This document shows, piece after piece, positions 1 through 59,441 of a DNA stretch of 64,000 nt. This DNA comes from Mytilinidion resinicola (lineage: Eukaryota; Ascomycota; Dothideomycetes; Mytilinidiales; Mytilinidiaceae), in assembly GCF_010093595.1 (NCBI RefSeq), contig NW_022985445.1, positions 1,635,080-1,699,079 on the forward strand. Reading direction: 5' to 3'. Position 1 is the stretch's first letter, and every line of letters begins with the position of its first letter. Under the pieces are notes generated by a model. The model saw only the letters and a list, made by a program, of their open reading frames with translations. It did no database searches and was not told the origin of the DNA. The position numbers and the translations under genes were made by a program.

Positions 1-324
1 TTCGGAGAGTAGCTTTCTGGCATATGAGTTGTTGATCCTAGGTTGTAGTGCTGCAACCTGAGTTGTGTGGCGCAACACTCCCCATGCCGCAACGAATTTA
101 TTGCTTCGGCATCTTACTCTCTCCCTCGCCATTCCATCAAGTTATCGTTAACTTACTATTATTCTTCAGATATTTCTCCCTAGGAAACGGGCGTTGATAA
201 TCTCACACCCCCTAATCCCTCCACGCACCCCCCCCCCTCTCGTCTGATCTCCTAATTGGCTGGAGCGGCCGGGTCGACTCTTCGGAGCTTCCTCTCGTGC
301 TCCTCTAGAAGTAAATAAGCGAGC

Positions 325-390
325 GCAGGTGGCAATACAGGTGGCAATGCAGGTGGCAATGCTGGTGACAATATAGGCGGCAATGCAGGC
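325..390. repeat. Short tandem repeat, unit about 12 bp
   Basis: About six imperfect copies of a 12-bp unit resembling AGGTGGCAATGC lie head to tail. They sit inside the candidate TIR element. No coding meaning is apparent. Confidence 0.75.
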
Positions 391-477
391 GAGCCAGGCT
401 TAATGGAAAGGAGCCTCTACAAGGCGACGTTTTGATAGTTTCGGCATGCTCCTAGGCATATTAGCACTGCACATTTA

Positions 478-760
478 GCTATGCATACGGCATCACGTAC
501 AGCATCACTTACAGCATCACTTACGGCCTCACGTACGGCCTCACGTACGGTCTCACGTACGGCATTACGTATAGCATCACTTACCAGCCTTATATACGGC
601 CTCACGTACAACTGTATATACAGCTGAAGGAAATAGAAAGAATAAGCTGCAAAACGGAGAAGCTGTATAGCCATGCCGATTCGTATAGCCTCACGTATAG
701 CCTCATATACGAGCTCACGTACGGCCTCGCGTATAGCATCACGTGTAGAGAGAGGTAAAT
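478..760. repeat. Minisatellite, unit about 12 bp (TCACGTACGGCC-like)
   Basis: Many imperfect 12-bp units of the form TCACGTACGGCC, varying to TCACTTACAGCA and TCACGTATAGCC, run head to tail. Because the unit length is a multiple of three, open frames result on the minus strand with a degenerate Ala-Val-Arg-Glu periodicity. I treat these as a by-product of the repeat and not as genes. Confidence 0.8.
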
Positions 761-903
761 GTGAATGCCCGGAGGAAGCTCCGCGCTGCTCCGAGCCAAT
801 CAGAAGGTGGTGAAGCGCCAAGAGGGGGGGTGTGCAAATAGCGAAAAGGGGGGTGTGCGTAGGAAACTAGTGTGCAGCTAAAAAATTACAATGTTCTTGA
901 TTA

Positions 904-1207
904 TCCCTTCGCCCGCTGGCGTCCTCGCTTGCCGCCAAGCCCGTGCTCAAACGTACGCGCCACTCGATTTGGGTGCTCTGTGTGTCGCATTCCTTTCTGT
1001 ACGGTTGCCGGTGCGCATAGCTCTGTTTGCACCGGCTGGCAGGACCACCTGGCCAAGCTCAACTCCACGGACTAGCTTGTATATAGTAACTACAAGCAGT
1101 TAAATTGCTTTACCTGGGTGCAGTTCTCATCACGGAGCCGAATCTAGAGCCTCTGATTGGCCAAATCCTTATCGATAACTGAGGACGTAAACCAGCGGGC
1201 GAAGGGA
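904..1207. mobile_element. MITE-like element, 304 bp, TA target site
   Basis: The left end TCCCTTCGCCCGCTGG (904-919) is the exact reverse complement of the right end (1192-1207). The match continues inward with a further 7 bp (CGTCCTC at 920-926 against GAGGACG at 1181-1187) after a 4-bp offset. TA dinucleotides flank both ends (902-903 and 1208-1209), as expected for Tc1/mariner-type integration. No open frame inside looks like a transposase, so it is non-autonomous. Its termini differ from those of the neighbouring transposon at 1255-3276. Confidence 0.8.
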
Positions 1208-1298
1208 TACTGTCGATTATTCCTTTCAGAGCATCTGGAACGGCATTAGCTTTACAGAGGTTCTCTTCAAAAGTTTCTGCCGCGCTAAAAAATGTGGC

Positions 1299-1856
1299 TT
1301 AAGCCTCAATACGCCACCAAACGCCACCAGCTCGGCACACAACTATGTAGCTACTTGATAACCTCTCCTGCCCCCTCCGAGACTCGTATATTTGGTGTAG
1401 CTCCACCAGTTTAATGAGTCTGGTTCGCTGCTGCCCTAGTAGCTGAGCGCGTACGGCGCGGCGCGCCAGGTAGGCTATATGGCAGCTCCGTTTGTGCAGC
1501 CAACGGGTCATTTTCTGCAGATATGAACCTGACCGTACGAGCATTCGTTTTCGAGATTTTGGCAGGGTTTTGCTCTGTTTTTGATGCCCTGCTAGTCTTG
1601 AAGATGTCAGGGCCACTAGGCGCTCTGCCTCTGCGCGCTCCTTGTGTTTCTTCTTCCTTGATGCAGCCTCTGGTGATTGCTCAGCGTCCTTAGTGCCCTT
1701 ATTGTTATCAACATCTACCCAGTTGTTGTTGTCGTCGTCGTTGTCGTTGTCGTTGTTGTCGTTGTTGTTGTCATTGTTAACATCTGCCCAGTTGTCTGGG
1801 CGCTTCAAATGGCGAGTCTTCTCCATAGCGCCCTCTATACTTATTGCCGCCCTCAA
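1299..1856 (-). CDS. Second open frame of the transposon, Asn/Asp-rich, function unknown
   Basis: A 185-residue frame lies between the transposase stop and the left TIR. It overlaps the 3' end of the transposase gene by 80 bp in another frame. It has a long Asn/Asp tract (roughly residues 25-55) encoded by a GTT/GTC trinucleotide run, then a basic, Lys/Arg-rich region. It is not a recognised domain. It may be a translated accessory ORF, a C-terminal extension separated from the transposase by frameshift, or chance. The basic, structured-looking tail is the only argument for it being real. Confidence 0.3.
   Translation of the reverse strand: MRAAISIEGAMEKTRHLKRPDNWADVNNDNNNDNNDNDNDDDNNNWVDVDNNKGTKDAEQSPEAASRKKKHKERAEAERLVALTSSRLAGHQKQSKTLPKSRKRMLVRSGSYLQKMTRWLHKRSCHIAYLARRAVRAQLLGQQRTRLIKLVELHQIYESRRGQERLSSSYIVVCRAGGVWWRIEA
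1715..1776. repeat. GTT/GTC trinucleotide repeat
   Basis: An imperfect trinucleotide run (GTTGTTGTCGTCGTTGTC and similar) lies within the transposon, just after the transposase stop. It is the source of the Asn/Asp tract in the overlapping frame. Confidence 0.8.
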
Positions 1857-3072
1857 GCCTAATTATCTCTTGGATATGTCGTGGAATCCGTTGAATCCAG
1901 GCCTGGCAGCGCCATTGCTCCATATCCTTCCAGCTCTGCCGCCACCGCTTATCTCCTTGTGCCCTAGACTTTGGCGCGCCCTTCTTTGTAGTTGTGCGCT
2001 TAAGGTAAGGCCAGGCAGGCTCTATCGCGTTGAGATCTGGGGAATTTGCAACCCAGAGAAGTTGTTGGACCTTAGCAGCGGCGTAGACAGTTGCTTGGTG
2101 ATGATGTACGTGCGCAGGAGCACGATCTTCCTGTACAATTGTACCCTGCCGATCGCGCGCGCAGTGCTGGGCAAATGGGATAAGCTTCTTCTCTAAGATC
2201 TCCTTCTTGTAGCGATACCAATCAACGCCTGTTCCACTGCCTCTTGTAAGCTTTCCAGTATCCTGTGTAAACTGCCACTTCGGCTTCCTGCCTGGGCGGT
2301 TGCGTGTTGCCCCAAGGCGCGATAGAGGATTCTCTAGCTCCCACTCTGCCCGTGCAATAGGCTCAATAGTTTTGTTAAGCTCGGCGAGATCTTTGTCTAC
2401 TGCAGCGCGTTCAGCCTTTATTTCTGGGTGCCAGATATGGCAAGGGCCCTTGCGATTATAAGAGAAGCAGCCCCAGAACATAAGCTCTGAGTATCCTTTC
2501 CAGCGTTCTCGTATTATTGTGCGCAAGAACCGTTCGTTTAACCGACGCCAGATACAATATCCTCCACGGCGCTGGCCAACTACAAAGGCCGTCTCGTCGC
2601 TCCAGATAACATTCTTCCAGTCCTCAAGAGTCCAGTGTTGATAGTCAAGGCACCACTGTAATTGTTCCTGCTTCATCCACTTCTGTAGCCCAGGTTTCCG
2701 TGTAAGTTTCGTCTTCCGCATGTTAAGGTGGCGGCGAAGAATGCGCCATGCAGTCGTGGCTGAGATTCCCACCTCTTCTGCAAGCTGGTAAGTATTTAAT
2801 TCCCTTCCAGCTCTGCTCTTAGTAATTAACTTCTCCATCTTTGCAATCTTCCTTGGGGTTTGTACAGTCGGCCGGCCAGAGCGAGGTGCATCTTGCACGT
2901 ATATGTCAAGAACTTTAAGCGATTGTTGGGGGTTCCAGCCGCGATCTATGGCCCTCTTCCAAACGTCCCGAATCGTGCGCTCTGACATGCCAGTGATGGC
3001 AGTAATTTGGTCAGAAAGAACATTCATAGCCTTAAGCGTAAGGGCTTGCGCCCTTGTAGCATTGTCGTACAT
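1777..3072 (-). CDS. Tc1/mariner transposase (DD34E)
   Basis: This 431-residue protein would cut and paste the surrounding element through its terminal inverted repeats. The N-terminal part (about residues 25-115) contains two helix-turn-helix-like segments typical of Tc1 DNA-binding regions. The catalytic triad is readable as D159 (WSDET), D316 (QEDRAPAH) and E351 (SPDLNAIEP). The 34 residues between the second and third acidic residues match the Tc1-like DD34E signature. A longer linker of about 100 residues separates the first two acidic residues, which I believe is common in fungal members. The frame is open from ATG to stop with no intron needed. It is probably functional, but activity is not shown by sequence alone. 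Confidence 0.9.
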   Translation of the reverse strand: MYDNATRAQALTLKAMNVLSDQITAITGMSERTIRDVWKRAIDRGWNPQQSLKVLDIYVQDAPRSGRPTVQTPRKIAKMEKLITKSRAGRELNTYQLAEEVGISATTAWRILRRHLNMRKTKLTRKPGLQKWMKQEQLQWCLDYQHWTLEDWKNVIWSDETAFVVGQRRGGYCIWRRLNERFLRTIIRERWKGYSELMFWGCFSYNRKGPCHIWHPEIKAERAAVDKDLAELNKTIEPIARAEWELENPLSRLGATRNRPGRKPKWQFTQDTGKLTRGSGTGVDWYRYKKEILEKKLIPFAQHCARDRQGTIVQEDRAPAHVHHHQATVYAAAKVQQLLWVANSPDLNAIEPAWPYLKRTTTKKGAPKSRAQGDKRWRQSWKDMEQWRCQAWIQRIPRHIQEIIRLEGGNKYRGRYGEDSPFEAPRQLGRC

Positions 3073-3278
3073 AGTTTATTGGCACAGTGGTGGACGAGAA
3101 TCAAATCAGAAAGTGGAGTGTACAGGTGATGGAGGGGTTTCTTGGCATTGACGTGGCGGATTTTCGTTGGCGCTAGGCCCGTATAGGAAGGGGCTAGACG
3201 GTTTGTGGCGTAGGCTAACGTCTAGCGTGCGCCATGGCGTTTTTAGCGCGGCAGAAACTTTTGAAGGGAACCTCCGTA

Positions 3279-3930
3279 CATCCCTGCTACACCACGACTA
3301 TCTCCTAAATTTCATATTTCGGAGTATTGAACTGAGTAGTTCTAGGATAAAAGAAGATATTTCCAAGCTTTGAGGCAAAAGTCTCTTGGAAACATGCATT
3401 CCGGATTTATCCGTGCGAAGACGTCTATAGTATGTTGTGAAGGGTGCAAGAGGCAACTAACGTGTACGCGTTGTATCCTAGGTACAGAAGAATAATAGTA
3501 TCTAAGGAAAAAGGGAAGCAGGGCAGGCACGAGGCGGAAAAGGGGGCTGCCCAGCCTCGTCCTCGTACGACGCTAGGTCGGTTCCGTCCTCAGCCTCTTA
3601 GCCACCGTTGAGGCTCTGCAAGCACCGTGCTACGGAGGCCGAGCCGTAGGAGCACCCACCAGGGCGCAGCCCATTACATATGTCTTGGCATGAGGGTTTA
3701 TAGCGCTTACATAGGGAGGTATTAGATATTATACTATATTTTACGCTATGTTTTAAAATGCGGCGCTCTTCCAGAAACAACCATAAATGGTCACGTACTG
3801 GCTATTTTTGGCAGCCGTTCCTTGTTGCTACCTGTTGCTACCTGTCTACAACTGCTAGCAAATGCGGCTTCACCCCAAACGTGGTCGCAACATGGATTCT
3901 AATTTACCTACCCGTAAGCGGAAGCCTTGG
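3279..3930. other. Intergenic, no recognised gene
   Basis: This lies between the Tc1/mariner element and the left arm of the NLR-carrying unit. Only short open frames occur, and none resembles a known protein. It may be decayed mobile DNA. Confidence 0.5.
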
Positions 3931-4067
3931 TACCCCACCTTATGTATCAATCAAGCACCATTAGCCTAGGCACGTGATTTGCCACGGTACAAGAAGGTAC
4001 CTCTCCACCACCGCTTGAGCTGACAAGAGTGTGTCGGAATGGGTCGGCCGTCCTCCCTACTAGCATG
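3931..4067 (+). repeat. Left inverted-repeat arm of NLR unit
   Basis: It runs from TACCCCACCTTATG to CCTCCCTACTAGCATG. It contains the conserved core AGCCTAGGCACGTGATTTG, which recurs inverted near 7710-7735. Identity is high over the outer 97 bp and drops inward. Confidence 0.85.
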
Positions 4068-7000
4068 ATTAATGCGTTCGTCTCTGCTGATATTCAAGTG
4101 GCAACCCTTGCAACATGTGGTTCTATAATAAAGAATGCTCGAAGCTTCGCGGTGGCAAATTAGGAGGGTATATATTCATCTCGATCCCCGGCCCTCTATG
4201 AAATAGAGATATAAAAGAAAATAAAGATAATAAATCATCTCAATACAAATGCTCTAGCCTATGTTAGGCTGACATGTCGAATATCCAGACTCTTCCAGTC
4301 CTAACACCAATGCCAAGCATCTTCCCCACCACTGCTGCAGAACATGATGGCCGATACTCCAACGGTAGCCATAGTACCTTCTTAGAATCGCGTGTTATCC
4401 ATGCTCCATCTGAACTTAAAGCCAGGCCTTTGTATTCTGGAGTCTGAGGATGTGTCGCAATTGTTGTGGGAACTAATTGAGTTGCACTAATACTGATAGT
4501 CCCACATGAAGTGTAAAGATACAAACCAGTGGTGTCAAATGACATATGCATGAGCACCCTGCCAACGTAAAGCGTCTGCAGGCACTCGCCACTGTTCGCA
4601 TCCCAGATCTTGACTGTGCGGTCGTATGACGCAGACGCCAGCCGCGTTGAGTCGTGAGAGAAGGCCACTGAGTAGACCAAGCTGCTATGGCCCTCAAGCG
4701 TCTGCAGGCACGTGTTCCATCCCTCACCCATAGCTGGCATGATAGTGATCCATTTCGGCTTTTCATGCTGAAACAGCCCTCTCACCAAGCTCCTTATTGG
4801 ACTGAATAACAGCGCAGACGCATATGCCTGAAGAGGGCAACTCTCTATTGCTCCTTTGTAATACATGATGAGCCGATGCGCATCATAAACAAGCTTAGTG
4901 AATAAAGTTGTGTTTCCTCTTCCCTAGGTTTTGTCAGAACAATCTAACTAAGTTGCTTATTGCGGACATACCTGAACCAGCGACCGTAGTTTCGCCATCG
5001 AGACTATGCCTTTCGGCACACTTTTGCAAAGACTGAGAGCTTCTAGCCAGTAAAGATACTTCTCCCTCATAAACATATCGACAACGCCTCCGTCTTGCAG
5101 GTCTCCTGCATGGCTCGCTAAAGACACGGCATTTAATTCGCAGAGATGATCGACCCAGTAGATACACGAGTAGCGCAACGTTGCTAATGGATCAGAATCT
5201 GGCTGTTTAATGTCATTGACAGGATACCCTGGCGCTTTTAAGCCGTACATGTCCCGCTGCAGGGTTCTAGACATTATTTCGAGTGACCTGGCAACAATGG
5301 CGTGATGAACATCCTCCCTTCCGGATGGGAACACTTCTTCAGCTGCCTGAGCGAGGAGGAAGTCCTTGGCCGATTGATGCACAAAGTATATGGTATCTTC
5401 TCGCAGGATGAGGAACGAGCCACAGAGGCCAATAATCTCGCGCAACTCCTGGTCATTAGCTATTTCTCCCAGCTGTTCGACAAGGGCCACAAGCTCCTTC
5501 AGCGTGATTGGCCGGTACACGAGCGCAATGGACGCCAACACCTGCTTGCAGAGTTCAGCATCGTCCAACTTGCCGATCTGCTGCATCATCCGTTTATATA
5601 GAGAGTCCAGTCCAGGCGGAAACGAGTTAAGCTTCTTGAGCACGTTCCGTTTAGCCGTCATTTCGAGGTTTCGACACACCAGCGCTACCCAGAAGAAGGT
5701 GTCGTTCGCATTTAACGCCAGATACTCTAGCACAGAGTCTCGGGTTCGCTCATCGTACTTCTTTTGCTGCGCCATCTGAGACACCTTTTGCTCGATAAAG
5801 GTCCGGACAGCCGTTGACACAGACTCTGCATTCAGCTCGAGGCTCAGCCTTACCTTGTGGCCTGTCCGCTCTAGTTGTTCTTCAATGTCCGGCCAGTTGC
5901 GGCATGAGACAATCCACTTGACGCGGGAAGACACAGATGAATGCTTTGCAACAAAGTCGAGCAGCTTTGGCAAGTCGGTAACGCACTCGTCTAGCGCGTC
6001 GATGATCAGATATGTAGCGTTCAAGCTCGGGTCCCGCAGCACGTCCGTGAAGATCTCGGTCAAAGCAACCCAAGCATTTGCATCCTCGAACATGGTTTTG
6101 CCCGCGTGATCGTACTTCTTCCGAACGTACAAGACGAGCGACGGCTGCTGGCTAACCAGTAAGAACAACAGCCCTCGCAGTACGGCCGTTGCGGTGTTAA
6201 TGCGCGAGTCGGTGGCTTGGCAGAAGAAGTAGGACACGAGGCCCGTTTTAGCTATCGACTTCTGTAGCTCGTCGATAATGCCGCAGAGCAGCATTGTTTT
6301 GCCCTTGCCAGGATCACCTTTAATCCACAGCAGCTGGCTCTGCGGGTCGTTGTACCATTGCTGGAAGTGGATGTTGTCGAGAACCCAGTGGTACGAGGCT
6401 TTTATCAGTCCGCCCTTCGTATGTTCAATGCGCTTCTTATCGTCACGCGGATCTGTGCTATGTATGTCTTGAACGCATCTTTCTAGCTTAGAGATTTCGT
6501 CCATAAGGCGTCTAAACGCGCCCGCTGCCCCTTCGCCATATATAGGCGCTAGGTCAACACCAAATATTCCTTGCAGCGAGTAGGCTTCGTCTTCATCGCG
6601 TTTAGTCTCTCGGTGTTCCTTCCACCGCAACCGCTCGTTAATGTTGAACTGAGAAAGAGGGGCTCCTTCAAGCACTGCATGTGGGATGCTTGTGATTTTA
6701 TAGATCTGTGACTTTAGCGATATCTTGTCACCAAGTTTGCGCTGTTCACAAGAAAAGAACTCGACTGTGCGTGGGGCAACAAGCTCTTGAAGGGTCCAGC
6801 CTCGAGTGAACCATCTGCTTTTCCGGAACTCTGATTCCCACAGCGGCGGGCTCGGTTCTCCGCTGGCTTCAAGAGAGGAACTAGAGACGTCTGACAAGTA
6901 GACATAGCATCGCGCTGCGTTGCGGTACCAGCGAAACATGGACCGGATAGCGTGGGAGAACTCAGCCTTGTTTGCTTTATCAATGCAACAGGTGTCTACC

Positions 7001-7768
7001 CAAAACCATTCCAGGCCATCTTGTGCAGTTTGTTCTCCACAGAACCAGATCTTCTCGTAGCCAGGCTTGTCCCTGCCGGCGCCGTTTGTGAGGTCTTCGA
7101 AGGTGACCTCTTCAGTATCTTCTCCCCATGTATGCGAAAGTATGGCATAGGGAGGAATAGCCTCGTCGCTGAACTGAGTAAGACTGAAATCGCCATTATC
7201 GCAGCGTCTCAAAAGACGCATTGTTTCGCATAGAGCTTGACGGGCAAGCGGTAAGAATGGATCTCGGTCGGTGCAAACGCGGCAGCCTAGCCGAAGAGAC
7301 GAGAAGACGGCTGGCTCTTCTGCTGAGCATAGCACCCCTAGGCTATTGAGGTCAGCAAGAAAACAAAGAGATAGGGCGCGGATTCATACCACAGAATCGC
7401 ATCTGATTGCGAGGCCGCGCAAGAGTGCTGTGAGCAACTTCTATTCTGCTTTGCCGCGTCTTTGGGTTGGTGAAAGAGGGAGGGAGAACAGCTCAGCTGC
7501 GGGCGGGGTGGGGACTGATCGTCGGCGTGGCGCAATAAGGCTGACATGCAGCCGTCAGACTGCGGAAGGCGACTTCAAGCGACTCCTGGACGAATGTGCT
7601 TATATATTTCGGGGCGGACGGACGTCTTGGTGACACTAGCAGGGAGGAGGGCCGACCCGCTCTAGCTATAACCTTGTCAGCTTAAGCTGTGGTAGAAAAG
7701 TACCTTCTTGTACCGTGACAAATCACGTGCCTAGGCTAGTAGTGCCTAACTGGATACATAAGGTGGGG
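3933..7768. mobile_element. TIR-bounded, TA-flanked unit carrying an NLR gene
   Basis: A long imperfect inverted repeat of about 137 bp brackets this 3.8-kb segment. The arms start CCCCACCTTATGTATC on both sides and stop matching exactly at TA dinucleotides (3931-3932 and 7769-7770). Outside the TAs the two flanks are unrelated. The outer 97 bp are best conserved. The only gene inside is the HET-NACHT-WD40 gene, and no transposase is present. The layout is that of a non-autonomous DNA transposon that has captured a host gene. The alternative is two separate solo insertions of one MITE-like sequence in opposite orientation, one on each side of the gene. Confidence 0.65.
4264..7221 (-). CDS. 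HET-NACHT-WD40 NLR protein (HET-E/HNWD type)
   Basis: This is a fungal NLR, of the class controlling heterokaryon incompatibility and possibly non-self recognition. The gene has two exons (7221-4972 and 4923-4264) with a 48-bp intron (donor GTATGT, branch-like CTGAC, acceptor TAG) and encodes 969 residues. An ATG 114 bp upstream is in frame, but starting at MRLL matches other HET proteins. Order of domains: HET domain (about residues 18-170, with AILSHTWG and FWVDTCCIDK); NACHT NTPase with P-loop GDPGKGKT at 302-309 and Walker B LIIDALDE near 402-409; then the linker and C-terminal WD40 part. Only one well-formed 42-residue WD repeat remains (ending TVKIWD), followed by a degenerate WD-like tail. 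Family members typically carry about ten or more repeats. It is the sole gene between the inverted arms. Promoter elements were not identified. Confidence 0.9.
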
Positions 7769-7770
7769 TA
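7632..7770 (-). repeat. Right inverted-repeat arm of NLR unit
   Basis: This is the reverse complement of the left arm with scattered substitutions and small indels. It ends in GGTGGGGTA at 7762-7770. Confidence 0.85.
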
Positions 7771-8583
7771 CTGTAAGAGGGGGTTCACGGCAGGGAGCTT
7801 CTGATGGAATTTAGATGGAAATAACCGTAGCTACGTAGATCAATTGAGATAGAGACAAGACGAATTCTTGGAGAATCCGGGGGATCGTGAGATCCGGGCT
7901 ATCTAAGGCGAGCGCCAAGCGAGCACGTGACTAGCATGCCTCACGCAGGCGGCTGGCAGCCCGCCAGCACGAGGCTGGGCGCCGGATATCTATATACTCT
8001 GTAGGCGCCTCACAGGTACTAAGGTCCCAATTAGCCACACGTTTACAGCCACAAGCTTGGCTTGTTGGATGACATAAGTAAATTACACCGCGTTGCTTAT
8101 GTCAGACGTGCGGGGTCGTTTTGTCCTAGCTGGATTAGTAATTGCTTCCGACCACCGACCAGGGTGGCGACCTTGCATGAATTTGCGTGCAACAGCAGCC
8201 ATAAGGCTGATGATGACTTCCTAGTATGGTAGCGAGGTTCTAAGGCTCGGATAAGGCCATTTTATGAGCATCAGGAGTGATGGGAGCTCGATAGTGGTGC
8301 TGTGGCGGAATTCGATTACGCCATAAAAGAAGGCTCTCCGCAAATCAGGCGCTCAGGCGACGATGCGAACGTAATTTTTCCGTAGGAGAGGTTCTAAGGG
8401 CTCTAGGATGGCCACAGCAAACGACTTATACAAAGTTACAGGAAATATCGATGTGTGCAGAGAGCTTGAGTTGTTTGAAGTCAATGTACCCCTTATATTG
8501 TGCGGCACGGTGGGTGTTGCGCCACCTAGGGACGGACGTTAGCAGGCTTATACTGAGATTCCTTTCAGTGATGGAAACCAGTT
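7771..8583. other. Intergenic, no recognised gene
   Basis: This lies between the right arm of the NLR unit and the secreted-protein gene. Only short open frames are present and I see no structured repeat. Confidence 0.5.
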
Positions 8584-55551: not shown

Positions 55552-58512
55552 TTACCGAAATAGTGCTAGAGCTAGTTGATCCAGTGTAACGCTGTACCGA
55601 TGCTCATTGATCAACCCCTTGTTGCAAAACTCCTGCCAAGCGTCCATGGGCAAAGGCTCACCAGCAGCGGCCTCGCCCGCCTCCGTGGCCGTCTGTTCTT
55701 CGAGTGACTCCTCCGCATCGACCCATTGCTCCTCCCCGTCATCTGAGTCGTTGTCAGAGCTCGTTCGCTCCTCGTGGCTGGGCGTATGAGGGACCTCATG
55801 GGGCTGAACAGGATGTTGCTGCTCCGGCTCGTGCTCCGGGTGGTCGGGCTGAAGCGAGTCGATGGATGGCGCGGTGGGTTTTTCGTCTACCTCTTGCTTG
55901 ACGTCTTCATCCTGAGGGGCCTCGGAGGCTTGAGCCTCTTTTTTCTCTTCCGGATCGTGCTCGGGTTCTTGACCCTCGGGATACTCAAGCGCAGTTTCCC
56001 ACACCAAAGACCTCGACTCTTTCCGCTCCGTCGCCTCTTCCAGCTCCATGTCTCCCTCTTTCTTAATGAAGTCCCTGAAAATATCACCCACGCGCGTGAT
56101 CTTCACAAGGTCCTTCGGCTTGTCCCTCAACTCTAGGAACAGTCTGTCGATGAGGTCTAGATTACTTGGCAGCTCGACCTCATCGTCTATGGCCACCACA
56201 TCAGTGACTTCATTTTCATAGATTTCCGTCCGGAGGCGCTGGAGGAGGGTCATGCAGCGGCGCGATAGCGAAAGGTAGTCGAAGTGGGAGTGAAGTTCAT
56301 CTGCCGCGAGGAGCTCTCGGAGGGTGGAGAGTTGAGGGGTCAGGCCTCGCTCCGCTGTTTCAATGTTGGAGGTTGATATTGTCTCCAAAAGGGCCTTCCC
56401 CGTAACTTCGGGCTTCTGTTTCCCAGCAGCTTGCTCAGCTTTCTTGGCCTTTTGCTTCTGGCGTTTCTTCTGTGCTTTTGACAGCTTTGGAGCGTCATCG
56501 GCTAACTGCGTGCCAGCTGGCTGCGTATTAGCCGGTGGAGTCTCATCTCTTGAGACATCCGGGATACTCTGGACAGTGTGCTGAAGGTCGTTGTCCAAAT
56601 CAGGCACATCGTGAGCTCCGGCATCATTATGGGTGAGATGCTCCAGAAGATGGTGAAGCGTTAACCACCCGTGGTCCTTAGTGTCCCGCTGCTGCTTCCA
56701 GATCAAATCTTGAAGCGGTGAGCGTAAGATTAGGCCACGGTTCGTCGTATCGTGTTTTCGGTCTCCATGACGATGAGGGGCAAAGTTGGCTAACTTCTCG
56801 CCAAATGCCAAGCGGCGCCGGATCCAAAATAGATCAGCGGATGTTGGTGCAGCACCCACAAATATACGCTTTGCAGAATGATGATCGATGACATAATCAA
56901 GATCCTTCCAGGGGATCTCGAGACCACCAACCTGCCTCGCGGCGTTGTAGAGATGGGCTACCGCGGCGATCAGCCACCGAGTGTGACTGATACTCACCTC
57001 CTGTGTAAGGCGTCGGATCGTGTGGAGGAACATCCCGCACAGGAGTGGGTGGTGTCCAAGGAAAAAGAAGGGTTCCAAGGGCGAGTTTGTTACGCCCATA
57101 TGCTTGATAGCTTCGCCAACCGCATCGTCATCTACCCAGCGAGTGATATAGGACGAGACCTCGTTGAAGCGGGCAGAGAAGTCTGGCTGTTGTACGAGCA
57201 TGTACTCCAGCCTCGTACCCTGTACCTGCATGACCCCTTCATCTATGATATGGGTGTCAATCATATTCTCGATATCGTGTCCCCCCTCGACTAAATCCTT
57301 CAGCCCGTCTCTGATGCCGTCTCCTAGGCATTCGTAGATGTCTAAGTAGACCTGAAATGCAAATGAGACCCATTGGCTTTTGGAATTTGGTGCCTTGGTC
57401 AGGAGCGACTCGAATCGCGTTAGTTCGTCCAGAGCCGGAGCCTTGACTCTAAGCGCCCCGAACAGGCCGAAATCAGAAAGTATATTCTGCACCTCCAATT
57501 CTTTGCGGGTGTTTAGAGCAGAGAGTTGTGAGTCCGGATCGGACCGCTTAGAGATGGCTCGACGGTGAAAGTCCAGCTGAATAATGGCAGGTAGACAGAG
57601 CAGATTTGCGGTGCGATGCATATCTGGACCAAACTGATCAAGGCCCCTCTTTGGATCGTACGGCGCGTGGCCTGTGCTGACGCTGATTGACGTGTAAAAG
57701 TGATCCATCGCGGCCGTCACGCTGAAAAACTCCCCTGGCCGACATGGCAAGATGTCCTTAACGGCATTGTCCCAGATTGCGACAGATCGCTTGATAGTAC
57801 CTATAGCAACATTTGTCGTAACAGAAGCTGTAACCAGGTCCACTTCGTGATCTTTGTAAGCCTGCCAGACCTTTCGTACTGATTGACGAGCTAGCGATAG
57901 GTCATATAAGAAGCACATGGTAGCAAAGCGGAGCTCTGAGACAGCCTCAGCGGCTGCGTCCATGTTGTTCGTCGCAGACCTAGGGGTCGATTTCGAAGTG
58001 GACGTCGTAGTTGCTTCGTCGTCAGAACCATCGTTCGCCACGCTGTCTGCAGGATCTTCTGCTAAAATGCCGTACAAATTGAGCGTACGTTTGGCGTCGT
58101 CGTTCTGCTCAACCGTCTTCTTCTTACTCTTCCTCCGCTTTACATCACTCTTTGTACCCTTCACCTTCTCCTCGACGACGAAGAGGATGTCTTCTAGCCG
58201 GCCCGTGAAGAAGTCGTGCTGCGCATCACCAAGGGTGTTCGCGACGTACCAATCCGTGACCTTTTTCCTCCAAGTGATTACATCTTGTACACGATTGCAG
58301 AAGTCTATGACGTCGGGGGGTCGGTTGGCTGCCTTTGCAATGGCCTCGGCTTGTTTTAGAAGCTCTCGAGTGGTGGGCTTTGCTGGTGCCTCGTCGTTGT
58401 TTGTGGCATTGGAGTTTTTCTGAAGCCAACTGATGGCCCAGGCAGTCCCCTGCTTGTACAGGACGTAGGCACCGGTGTGCAGCTCTGTCGGGAGCTTAGG
58501 CCATGCAGGCAT
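55552..58512 (-). CDS. Large fungal protein with DUF6604-like N-terminal region
   Basis: A single uninterrupted exon of 986 residues. The N-terminal part (LPTELHTGAYVLYKQGTAWAI onward, about 5-260) resembles the fungal DUF6604 domain by pattern memory only. Lys-rich patches follow (KRRKSKKK near 125, and KAQKKRQKQKAKKAEQ near 675-690), possibly nuclear targeting. The C-terminal 200 residues are acidic and Glu/Pro-rich and look disordered. A conserved helical end remains (WQEFCNKGLINEHRY). Function is unknown. Codon use is like neighbouring genes, and the absence of introns over nearly 3 kb is notable next to intron-bearing neighbours. Confidence 0.85.
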   Translation of the reverse strand: MPAWPKLPTELHTGAYVLYKQGTAWAISWLQKNSNATNNDEAPAKPTTRELLKQAEAIAKAANRPPDVIDFCNRVQDVITWRKKVTDWYVANTLGDAQHDFFTGRLEDILFVVEEKVKGTKSDVKRRKSKKKTVEQNDDAKRTLNLYGILAEDPADSVANDGSDDEATTTSTSKSTPRSATNNMDAAAEAVSELRFATMCFLYDLSLARQSVRKVWQAYKDHEVDLVTASVTTNVAIGTIKRSVAIWDNAVKDILPCRPGEFFSVTAAMDHFYTSISVSTGHAPYDPKRGLDQFGPDMHRTANLLCLPAIIQLDFHRRAISKRSDPDSQLSALNTRKELEVQNILSDFGLFGALRVKAPALDELTRFESLLTKAPNSKSQWVSFAFQVYLDIYECLGDGIRDGLKDLVEGGHDIENMIDTHIIDEGVMQVQGTRLEYMLVQQPDFSARFNEVSSYITRWVDDDAVGEAIKHMGVTNSPLEPFFFLGHHPLLCGMFLHTIRRLTQEVSISHTRWLIAAVAHLYNAARQVGGLEIPWKDLDYVIDHHSAKRIFVGAAPTSADLFWIRRRLAFGEKLANFAPHRHGDRKHDTTNRGLILRSPLQDLIWKQQRDTKDHGWLTLHHLLEHLTHNDAGAHDVPDLDNDLQHTVQSIPDVSRDETPPANTQPAGTQLADDAPKLSKAQKKRQKQKAKKAEQAAGKQKPEVTGKALLETISTSNIETAERGLTPQLSTLRELLAADELHSHFDYLSLSRRCMTLLQRLRTEIYENEVTDVVAIDDEVELPSNLDLIDRLFLELRDKPKDLVKITRVGDIFRDFIKKEGDMELEEATERKESRSLVWETALEYPEGQEPEHDPEEKKEAQASEAPQDEDVKQEVDEKPTAPSIDSLQPDHPEHEPEQQHPVQPHEVPHTPSHEERTSSDNDSDDGEEQWVDAEESLEEQTATEAGEAAAGEPLPMDAWQEFCNKGLINEHRYSVTLDQLALALFR

Positions 58513-59441
58513 CCTGAGAGTTTCTATTGGTAGTTTCTAGGAGGTGAGTTGGTTGCGAGGCTGCGAAAATGCGAGGTGGTAGGTTGGTAGGTTGGTGGGT
58601 GGGTGGGTGAGTGTGTGGTGCGGCGGCTGGAAAGCTGTGCAAGAAGTCCATCTTTATAGGTAGAAGTGTGAGGGTCTCGATCGCGCAGCGCTGTTGTTCT
58701 GGTGAATGTTCAGAGTTTCTTGATAGATAGTGAATCACTTCTGCTCCGCGTCCGCATCGCGTAGTGCAGGGGTCCAACACGAGGCGTAGCCTTAGTAGAG
58801 TGAAGCATTTCACCACAATTAGCTTGCGCCGCTGCACTAACTGTTATCGCCTCAAGGCGCCCCTGGCTACTCGACTCCGAAGCTTTTATTGATTGGAAAG
58901 GGTCTGAACGACAGGTCGATAGCAGGGACGGCCTATTCACGTTGTAAACGTTAGCATTGCGCAGGGAGCTTTTTTCTACACTAAAGCACATCGAGCCACG
59001 TCAAAACAGTTCAGTCATTTGTATTCACACTGATAGGATAGCTCTGATATAGGTGGTTGATATGCTAGATTACCTGGTAACCATGTGAATGAGGTTCTGG
59101 AAGCAACCAGTTCGACGACGTGTTTGATTGGTGCGACGACCCCCGAAGGTCAGATCTGATTCCGTAATCTGACGCTCTATTCAGACGTTAGTTTTCCCGG
59201 GAACAAATAATGGTAGAATTATTTCCTTTGTTTAGCTTGACCTTTCATTTTAGACATGTCGTTTCCATGATGATGACGCTGTATGAGGTAGCCCCGTATG
59301 TCCAGCACGCTGCGGAAAGTATGTTGCGTTTTGCAGCTCGCGGATTGCAGCGATGGCTCAGCTAGAGTCAATGGAGCTAGCTCCTCAGCTCCAGGCTCTT
59401 ATCGAGGTAAGCATAAGTGGAAAAGGGTCATGTTAGCCCTT
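58513..59441. other. Intergenic, no recognised gene
   Basis: The 5' flank of the large protein gene, with a GT-rich simple run near 58580-58620, and the 3' flank of the prenyltransferase gene. Nothing else was recognised. Confidence 0.5.

Follow-up and report, generated by a model that had tools for sequence, protein, structure and literature searches.

Receptor gene and inverted arms

The window, a stretch of 64,000 nucleotides of Mytilinidion resinicola DNA (NCBI RefSeq assembly GCF_010093595.1, contig NW_022985445.1, positions 1,635,080 to 1,699,079), contains a gene of the NOD-like receptor (NLR) type enclosed by a pair of inverted arms. In our locus naming the window lies on contig C9, and L-numbered loci are places in the same genome. 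The gene was delimited from the sequence, its frames and Pfam matches to positions 4264-7221 on the reverse strand. Its predicted model begins with an ATG at 7221-7219, is interrupted by a 48-bp intron (4971-4924), ends with a stop codon at 4266-4264 and encodes 969 amino acids with no internal stop in its frames. Pfam matches to HET, NPHP3_N/NACHT and WD40 are spread across the two exons, in accord with the HET-NACHT-WD40 identity proposed by the first-pass annotation of this DNA. The WD40 part consists of one clear repeat, the relative at L022 having instead an array of 126-bp units.

Arm searches and alignment with other arms placed the left arm at 3930-4063 on the forward strand and the right arm, 5′ of the gene, at 7636-7771 on the reverse strand. 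Aligned in inverted orientation (3930-4063 with 7771-7636), the two are 83% identical across 136 bp, so that the inverted arms of about 137 bp originally described around a single gene are real, and the similarity between them ends at TA.

Extent of the carrier

The element does not end at the arms. Outward of the arm TA, most of 16 other arms in the genome stay similar in alignment, and the sequence beyond them falls into two flank types, which we named c1 and c2. Copies thus continue outward past the arms, and the 137-bp repeats, taken by the first-pass annotation for terminal repeats with unrelated DNA outside them, are subterminal inverted repeats of a larger element whose complete copies end approximately 0.5-0.6 kb further out. 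The left flank in the window is c1, matched in pieces by family copies back to approximately position 64, and the right flank is c2 behind an insert. Comparison with other copies indicates approximately 600 bp of carrier beyond the left arm, broken by four later inserts, and approximately 520 bp beyond the right arm, behind an insert of 246 bp; in other copies c2 adjoins the arm directly. This insert produces the apparent TA boundary on the right, its target duplication having one copy at 7769-7770. The TA boundaries therefore stand as the points at which arm-to-arm similarity stops, but do not delimit the element.

Collinear matches to L021 and L022, allowing for nested inserts, together with the outer repeat, place the whole carrier at 64-8541, comprising a damaged left end, c1, arm, NLR gene, arm, c2, right outer repeat and TA. 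The c2 flank was recognized by its match to other copies at 8019-8539 on the reverse strand and includes the right outer terminal repeat ACGTCCGTCCCTAGGTGGCGCAACACCCACCGTGC (8505-8539, reverse strand), which is followed by TA at 8540-8541. On the left, alignment to the outer repeat identified a c1-type remnant at 64-95 on the forward strand, with the outermost 13 bp or so replaced and 8 substitutions in the best alignment. Positions 1-63 of the window are a dispersed sequence, of which 63-64 bp are identical in L025, L032, L037 and L039 and 51 bp in L022; the genome letters immediately left of the window are N.

Family ends and insertion sites

Within the same genome the left arm was found at 36 or more places and the right arm at 40 or more, giving at least 41 distinct places overall. 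The family has an outer terminal repeat of approximately 35 bp (ACGTCC..CCCTG.GTGGCG..) adjoining TA. A search with the pattern ACGTCCNNCCCTGNGTGGCGNAANACCCNNCGTGC, allowing up to 3 mismatches, returned 73 matches in the genome versus none for a control read backwards. Twenty-six of 28 outer ends are directly preceded by TA, and the other two (L021 and L038) are so after a shift of one base. Eight elements, selected because both ends had been located (L021, L022, L023 and L055-L059; 1.06-6.93 kb), were read end to end; all eight have TA on both sides and oppositely oriented outer repeats at their two ends. The complete cargo-bearing units among them (L021, L022, L023 and L058) measure 5.1-6.9 kb, and the order c1-arm-gene-arm-c2 is common to L021, L022 and the window.

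When the genome was searched with the 70-bp flanks of these eight elements, nothing beyond their own places was found apart from three additional matches, two of them short and to one L057 flank, the third across the L058 junction at contig C19. Segmental duplication is therefore disfavoured. The filled L058 site reads GAGG-TA-[element]-TA-CTT. Once joined, its flanks can be aligned to C19 and to the c2 sequences of L022, the window and L051, with no gap where they meet. These insert-free counterparts have a single TA in the three c2 copies and GA in C19.

At L063 (C10:1459231-1459371) three family ends are stacked 53 bp apart, starting at 1459231, 1459284 and 1459337, and each begins right after the TA found at bases 52-53 of the preceding end. 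The L058 insertion occupies the same aligned c2 TA, and the TA at bases 52-53 of family ends is a preferred self-insertion site at C10 and L058. One of the eight elements, L056 (C29:291120-295040), measures 3.75 kb and has no recognized gene; its two ends are both of c2 type, inverted and 84-93% alike in pieces across approximately 475 bp.

Cargo of the family

Besides the window, HET-NACHT-WD40 cargo was recognized by Pfam in L021 and L022 and by tblastn in L025, L030 and L032. The remaining members differ in architecture: L029 carries HET-NACHT, L031 and L039 carry HET with DUF7779-TPR, L034 carries DUF7779-TPR, and L038 has an AAA match, under its cut-off, with TPR. By tblastn, L033 and L040 hold TPR-type sequence and L036 PNP with TPR-type sequence. 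L058 carries HET, L027 two HET frames, L037 an OTT_1508-type deaminase domain, and L023 a PNP-NACHT-ankyrin gene with a HET remnant alongside. The search for other cargo genes between such arms, suggested by the first-pass annotation, has thus yielded several NLR architectures. The L059 element has a 635-amino acid frame with an RNase H match, perhaps a piece of a retroelement. Inward of the L024 arm lies an open frame of 759 amino acids (2496-4772, forward strand) with no match in Pfam or NCBIfam.

The sequence on both sides of 21 arms, those of the examined loci among the 41 or more arm places, was compared with a protein panel made up of one transposase and 12 proteins of NLR type. With panel proteins from other loci and distances up to 3.5 kb (outward stretches of 956-3500 bp), NLR-type sequence was found inward of 16 of the 21 arms and outward of none, while the transposase matched outward in two. 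The arms tested are therefore not mostly solo miniature inverted-repeat transposable elements, the outcome against which the first-pass annotation had advised a check. Across the whole genome, 15 of the 108 merged NPHP3_N loci are no more than 5 kb away from a listed carrier feature, with 2.16 expected under uniform placement. The contrast between inward and outward sides is the better control, because the uniform-placement test ignores genome compartments and uses incomplete feature lists.

Selection and divergence

The ratio of nonsynonymous to synonymous substitution rates (dN/dS) was calculated for seven HET-NACHT frames, of which L042 has three stops and the other six have none. It is 0.11-0.24 in all 21 pairs, and the HET-NACHT cargo frames are therefore under purifying selection. 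Repeat-induced point mutation (RIP) was assessed by applying RIP index thresholds to TpA/ApT values. The interiors of L030 and L036 have a RIP-like dinucleotide skew (TpA/ApT 1.53; GC content 0.37 and 0.40), and the genes of the window, L021 and L022 have none (0.78-0.85).

Among these last three copies, Kimura two-parameter (K80) distances are 0.10-0.17 for c1 and c2 and 0.105-0.23 for the arms, and cargo dS for the same pairs is 1.34-1.81, near saturation. The carrier ends are thus approximately 10-fold less diverged than synonymous cargo sites, with the reservation that dS at this level is near saturation. The stretch between arm and start codon has K80 values of 0.64 and 0.73 in the pairs involving L022 and 0.195 between the window and L021. 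The window and L021 genes are themselves mosaic in identity, at 92-95% in three 200-bp tiles near the 5′ end, 67-76% in the body and 83-90% near the 3′ end. Ends far less diverged than their cargo, together with this mosaic identity, suggest that carriers were reloaded with old receptors or that their ends were homogenized by recombination.

Transposases and classification

The genome contains at least 150 DDE_1 matches, many with TAG or TAA stops. Two pogo-type transposases near carrier sequence were considered as autonomous partners and rejected: those of L051 and L062 are both enclosed by terminal repeats of their own and interrupt c2. The pogo-type elements at L051 (737-2587) and L053 (43-1893) have 50-bp terminal repeats (TAACGTAATCC...). 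In L051 the repeats are exact and enclose an open frame of 576 amino acids, so this element may possibly have been active recently; the L051-type element at L053, with its own repeats, lies 2.1 kb from c1. The L052 transposase has its own inverted repeats (536-622 and 2322-2408), and a split of c2 was not demonstrated there. At L040 a transposase splits c1 without clear repeats, and the L034 transposase has six relatives elsewhere that are 97% identical. The transposases near carrier ends are accordingly nested, from other families or, as at L034, L040 and L052, unassigned.

The family displays the TA target duplication and terminal inverted repeats (TIRs) of Tc1/mariner elements. It also has a Pack-TYPE trait, as L021, L022, L023 and L058 are complete, contain NLR or HET cargo and have no transposase in their scanned frames. 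The carrier tips, ACGT directly after the TA, are common to the L051 pogo element (TA-ACGTAATC); the L062 pogo element differs. The TA target and ACGT tips suggest that the mobilizing enzyme would be of a pogo-like Tc1/mariner type.

Nested inserts and other features of the window

Five inserts interrupt the window carrier outside the gene. The first (189-859), identified against the uninterrupted L022 copy, is flanked by an 8-bp duplication, TAGGAAAC, at 181-188 and 860-867. The second (904-1207) has 12-bp terminal repeats, TCCCTTCGCCCG, and TA at 902-903 and 1208-1209. The third (1255-3276, or 1255-3278 with the second TA) is a Tc1/mariner element of approximately 2 kb that sits in the c1 flank with TA on either side. 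Its terminal repeats are 39 bp long and 95% alike, and its open frame of 432 amino acids (1780-3075, reverse strand) matches HTH_Tnp_Tc3_2 and DDE_3, both with scores under the Pfam curated cut-off. The fourth (3434-3680) is a dispersed repeat of approximately 250 bp, 92-93% identical at three other places; comparison with L022 gives clear duplications for three of the four left-flank inserts (TAGGAAAC, TA and TA). The fifth is the 246-bp insert on the right (7771-8016), with TA at 7769-7770 and 8017-8018. Because of these five inserts and the degraded left end, the window copy is probably immobile now, yet in its open gene frame it retains a receptor that is maintained and whose WD40 part is short. 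Elsewhere in the window, an open frame of 994 amino acids (55555-58536, reverse strand) matches DUF6604, a family of unknown function.

A probable receptor-carrying transposon family

From the observed layout, its spread to unrelated sites, the TA ends, the paralogous empty sites of one member, the stacking and the varied NLR cargo, we consider it likely that the window copy is a damaged representative of a non-autonomous, TA-inserting TIR family of Tc1/mariner type, probably pogo-like, whose usual cargo is NLR or HET genes. The core of the first-pass proposal, an NLR inside a small non-autonomous TIR element targeting TA, is thereby retained and extended to a multicopy family, with the proposed boundaries and size given up. 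A complete copy reads TA, outer repeat, c1 of approximately 0.6 kb, subterminal arm, receptor gene together with the sequences that belong to it on either side, the other arm in inverted orientation, c2 of approximately 0.5 kb, outer terminal repeat and TA. Movement would depend on a transposase supplied elsewhere, and carriers may have been reloaded with different receptors or had their ends homogenized through recombination.

Several observations weigh against such a family. The window's own left end lacks a preceding TA, and the 70-bp flank search of the genome found no paralogous empty site for the other seven complete elements. In L058, the sole element with empty sites, the cargo is a HET gene, but of the arms there are only weak remnants. 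Five of the 21 arms have no NLR match inward (L024, L026, L028, L035 and L037); among these, L026 is the second arm of the L025 element, with 1.6 kb inward covered, and L028 has a FAD-binding gene from approximately 1.6 kb inward instead of an NLR. Family ends without recognized cargo occur in L055, L056 and L057. In the carrier loci read, which did not include several TIR pairs, no transposase of the family itself turned up, and the family therefore looks non-autonomous here. Finally, ends and cargo differ strongly in divergence, which is at odds with a history of simple capture and subsequent joint descent.

A more specific version of the carrier family, which we put forward only tentatively, is that shared ends were repeatedly reloaded with different NLR genes and that carriers exchanged receptor modules with one another. 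Such shuttling predicts low divergence of the ends, the HET remnant beside the PNP-NACHT-ankyrin gene in L023 and the mosaic window gene.

It is also conceivable, though unlikely, that no NLR has been mobilized and that transposons merely prefer sites beside NLR genes in repeat-rich regions. The genome is indeed rich in DDE_1 transposons, the window unit has itself received five inserts, and 93 of the 108 NPHP3_N loci lie more than 5 kb from any listed carrier feature. Mere co-occurrence is nevertheless at odds with NLR sequence on the inner side of arms only (16 versus 0 of 21), with the constant order of flanks, arms and gene in L021, L022 and the window, and with the unrelated outer flanks of the eight complete elements.

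Starships are tens to hundreds of kilobases in size and have a DUF3435 tyrosine recombinase as captain. That the NLR is minor cargo of such a giant element, with the TIR structures incidental to it, appears very improbable. DUF3435 does match at 40 places in the genome, in many cases with stops, and for at least three carrier features elsewhere (C12:1200188, C5:217469 and C17:50939) the distance to such a match is about 5 kb or less, but none of the 40 is on C9, the window's contig, or on C16, that of L021, and the units are 5-7 kb long with inverted repeats and TA. The window's neighbours moreover resemble a core region: matches among ten other frames scanned include Utp13, kinesin, prenyltransferase and M28 peptidase genes, in addition to the Tc1-type transposase at 1780-3075. 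In favour of Starship cargo, NLR carriage by transposons is stated in PMC9815663, citing a Starship paper.

Still less credible is a 3.84-kb element that carries this one NLR and has the 137-bp arms, with TA duplications, for its terminal repeats, since, for all the arms' inverted 83% identity over 136 bp and its stop at TA, other copies run past the arms on both sides, the right TA is part of the nested 246-bp insert and complete copies close with a different repeat 0.5-0.6 kb further out.

Relation to known systems

Gene-carrying fungal hAT and Tc1/mariner elements are already known from the literature, and NLRs are reported to be carried by transposons. Pyrenophora tritici-repentis has a hAT element with a histone H3-like gene and a Tc1/mariner element with an osmosensory coiled-coil frame (PMC3538342), and histone H3 is found in a hAT element of Pseudocercospora fijiensis (PMC6710886). 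As described there, these transduplicating transposons resemble the carriers in that a small DNA transposon encloses a gene of host type within its terminal repeats and the gene has become multiplied in the genome. They differ in having one gene type per family, whereas one set of carrier ends encloses several NLR/HET architectures; the carrier cargo is in addition diverged and under purifying selection, with no family transposase found. Plant Pack-TYPE elements, as presented in PMC8903248, are likewise non-autonomous TIR elements with captured coding DNA; unlike their fragments, the carriers hold whole open receptor genes, and in a fungus.

The predicted two-exon window gene combines HET, NACHT and WD40 in one gene, the architecture of the Podospora anserina HNWD genes het-d, het-e and het-r (PMC1805685, PMC12222747). 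Arrays of 126-bp WD40 units, in line with the near-identical repeats of HNWD genes, are present in relatives such as L022, the window gene having its one clear repeat. The available text of the same two papers does not describe terminal repeats around HNWD genes, and the word "inverted" is absent from both. With Starships the carriers share NLR genes as fungal mobile-element cargo (PMC9815663), from which they differ as 5-7 kb TIR elements at TA. Searches of open-access literature, at the level of titles and abstract openings, yielded no report of small TIR elements that carry NLR or HET genes.

How the NLR genes of fungi come to spread, multiply and reshuffle is still an open question, which a small carrier with recognizable ends would make directly testable. 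Transposon-borne NLRs would extend from giant Starships to TIR elements of 5-7 kb, and the family would offer a physical basis for domain exchange between receptor loci. Under the tentative shuttling version, a DNA transposon would serve as both vehicle and recombination platform for part of this fungus's NLR repertoire.

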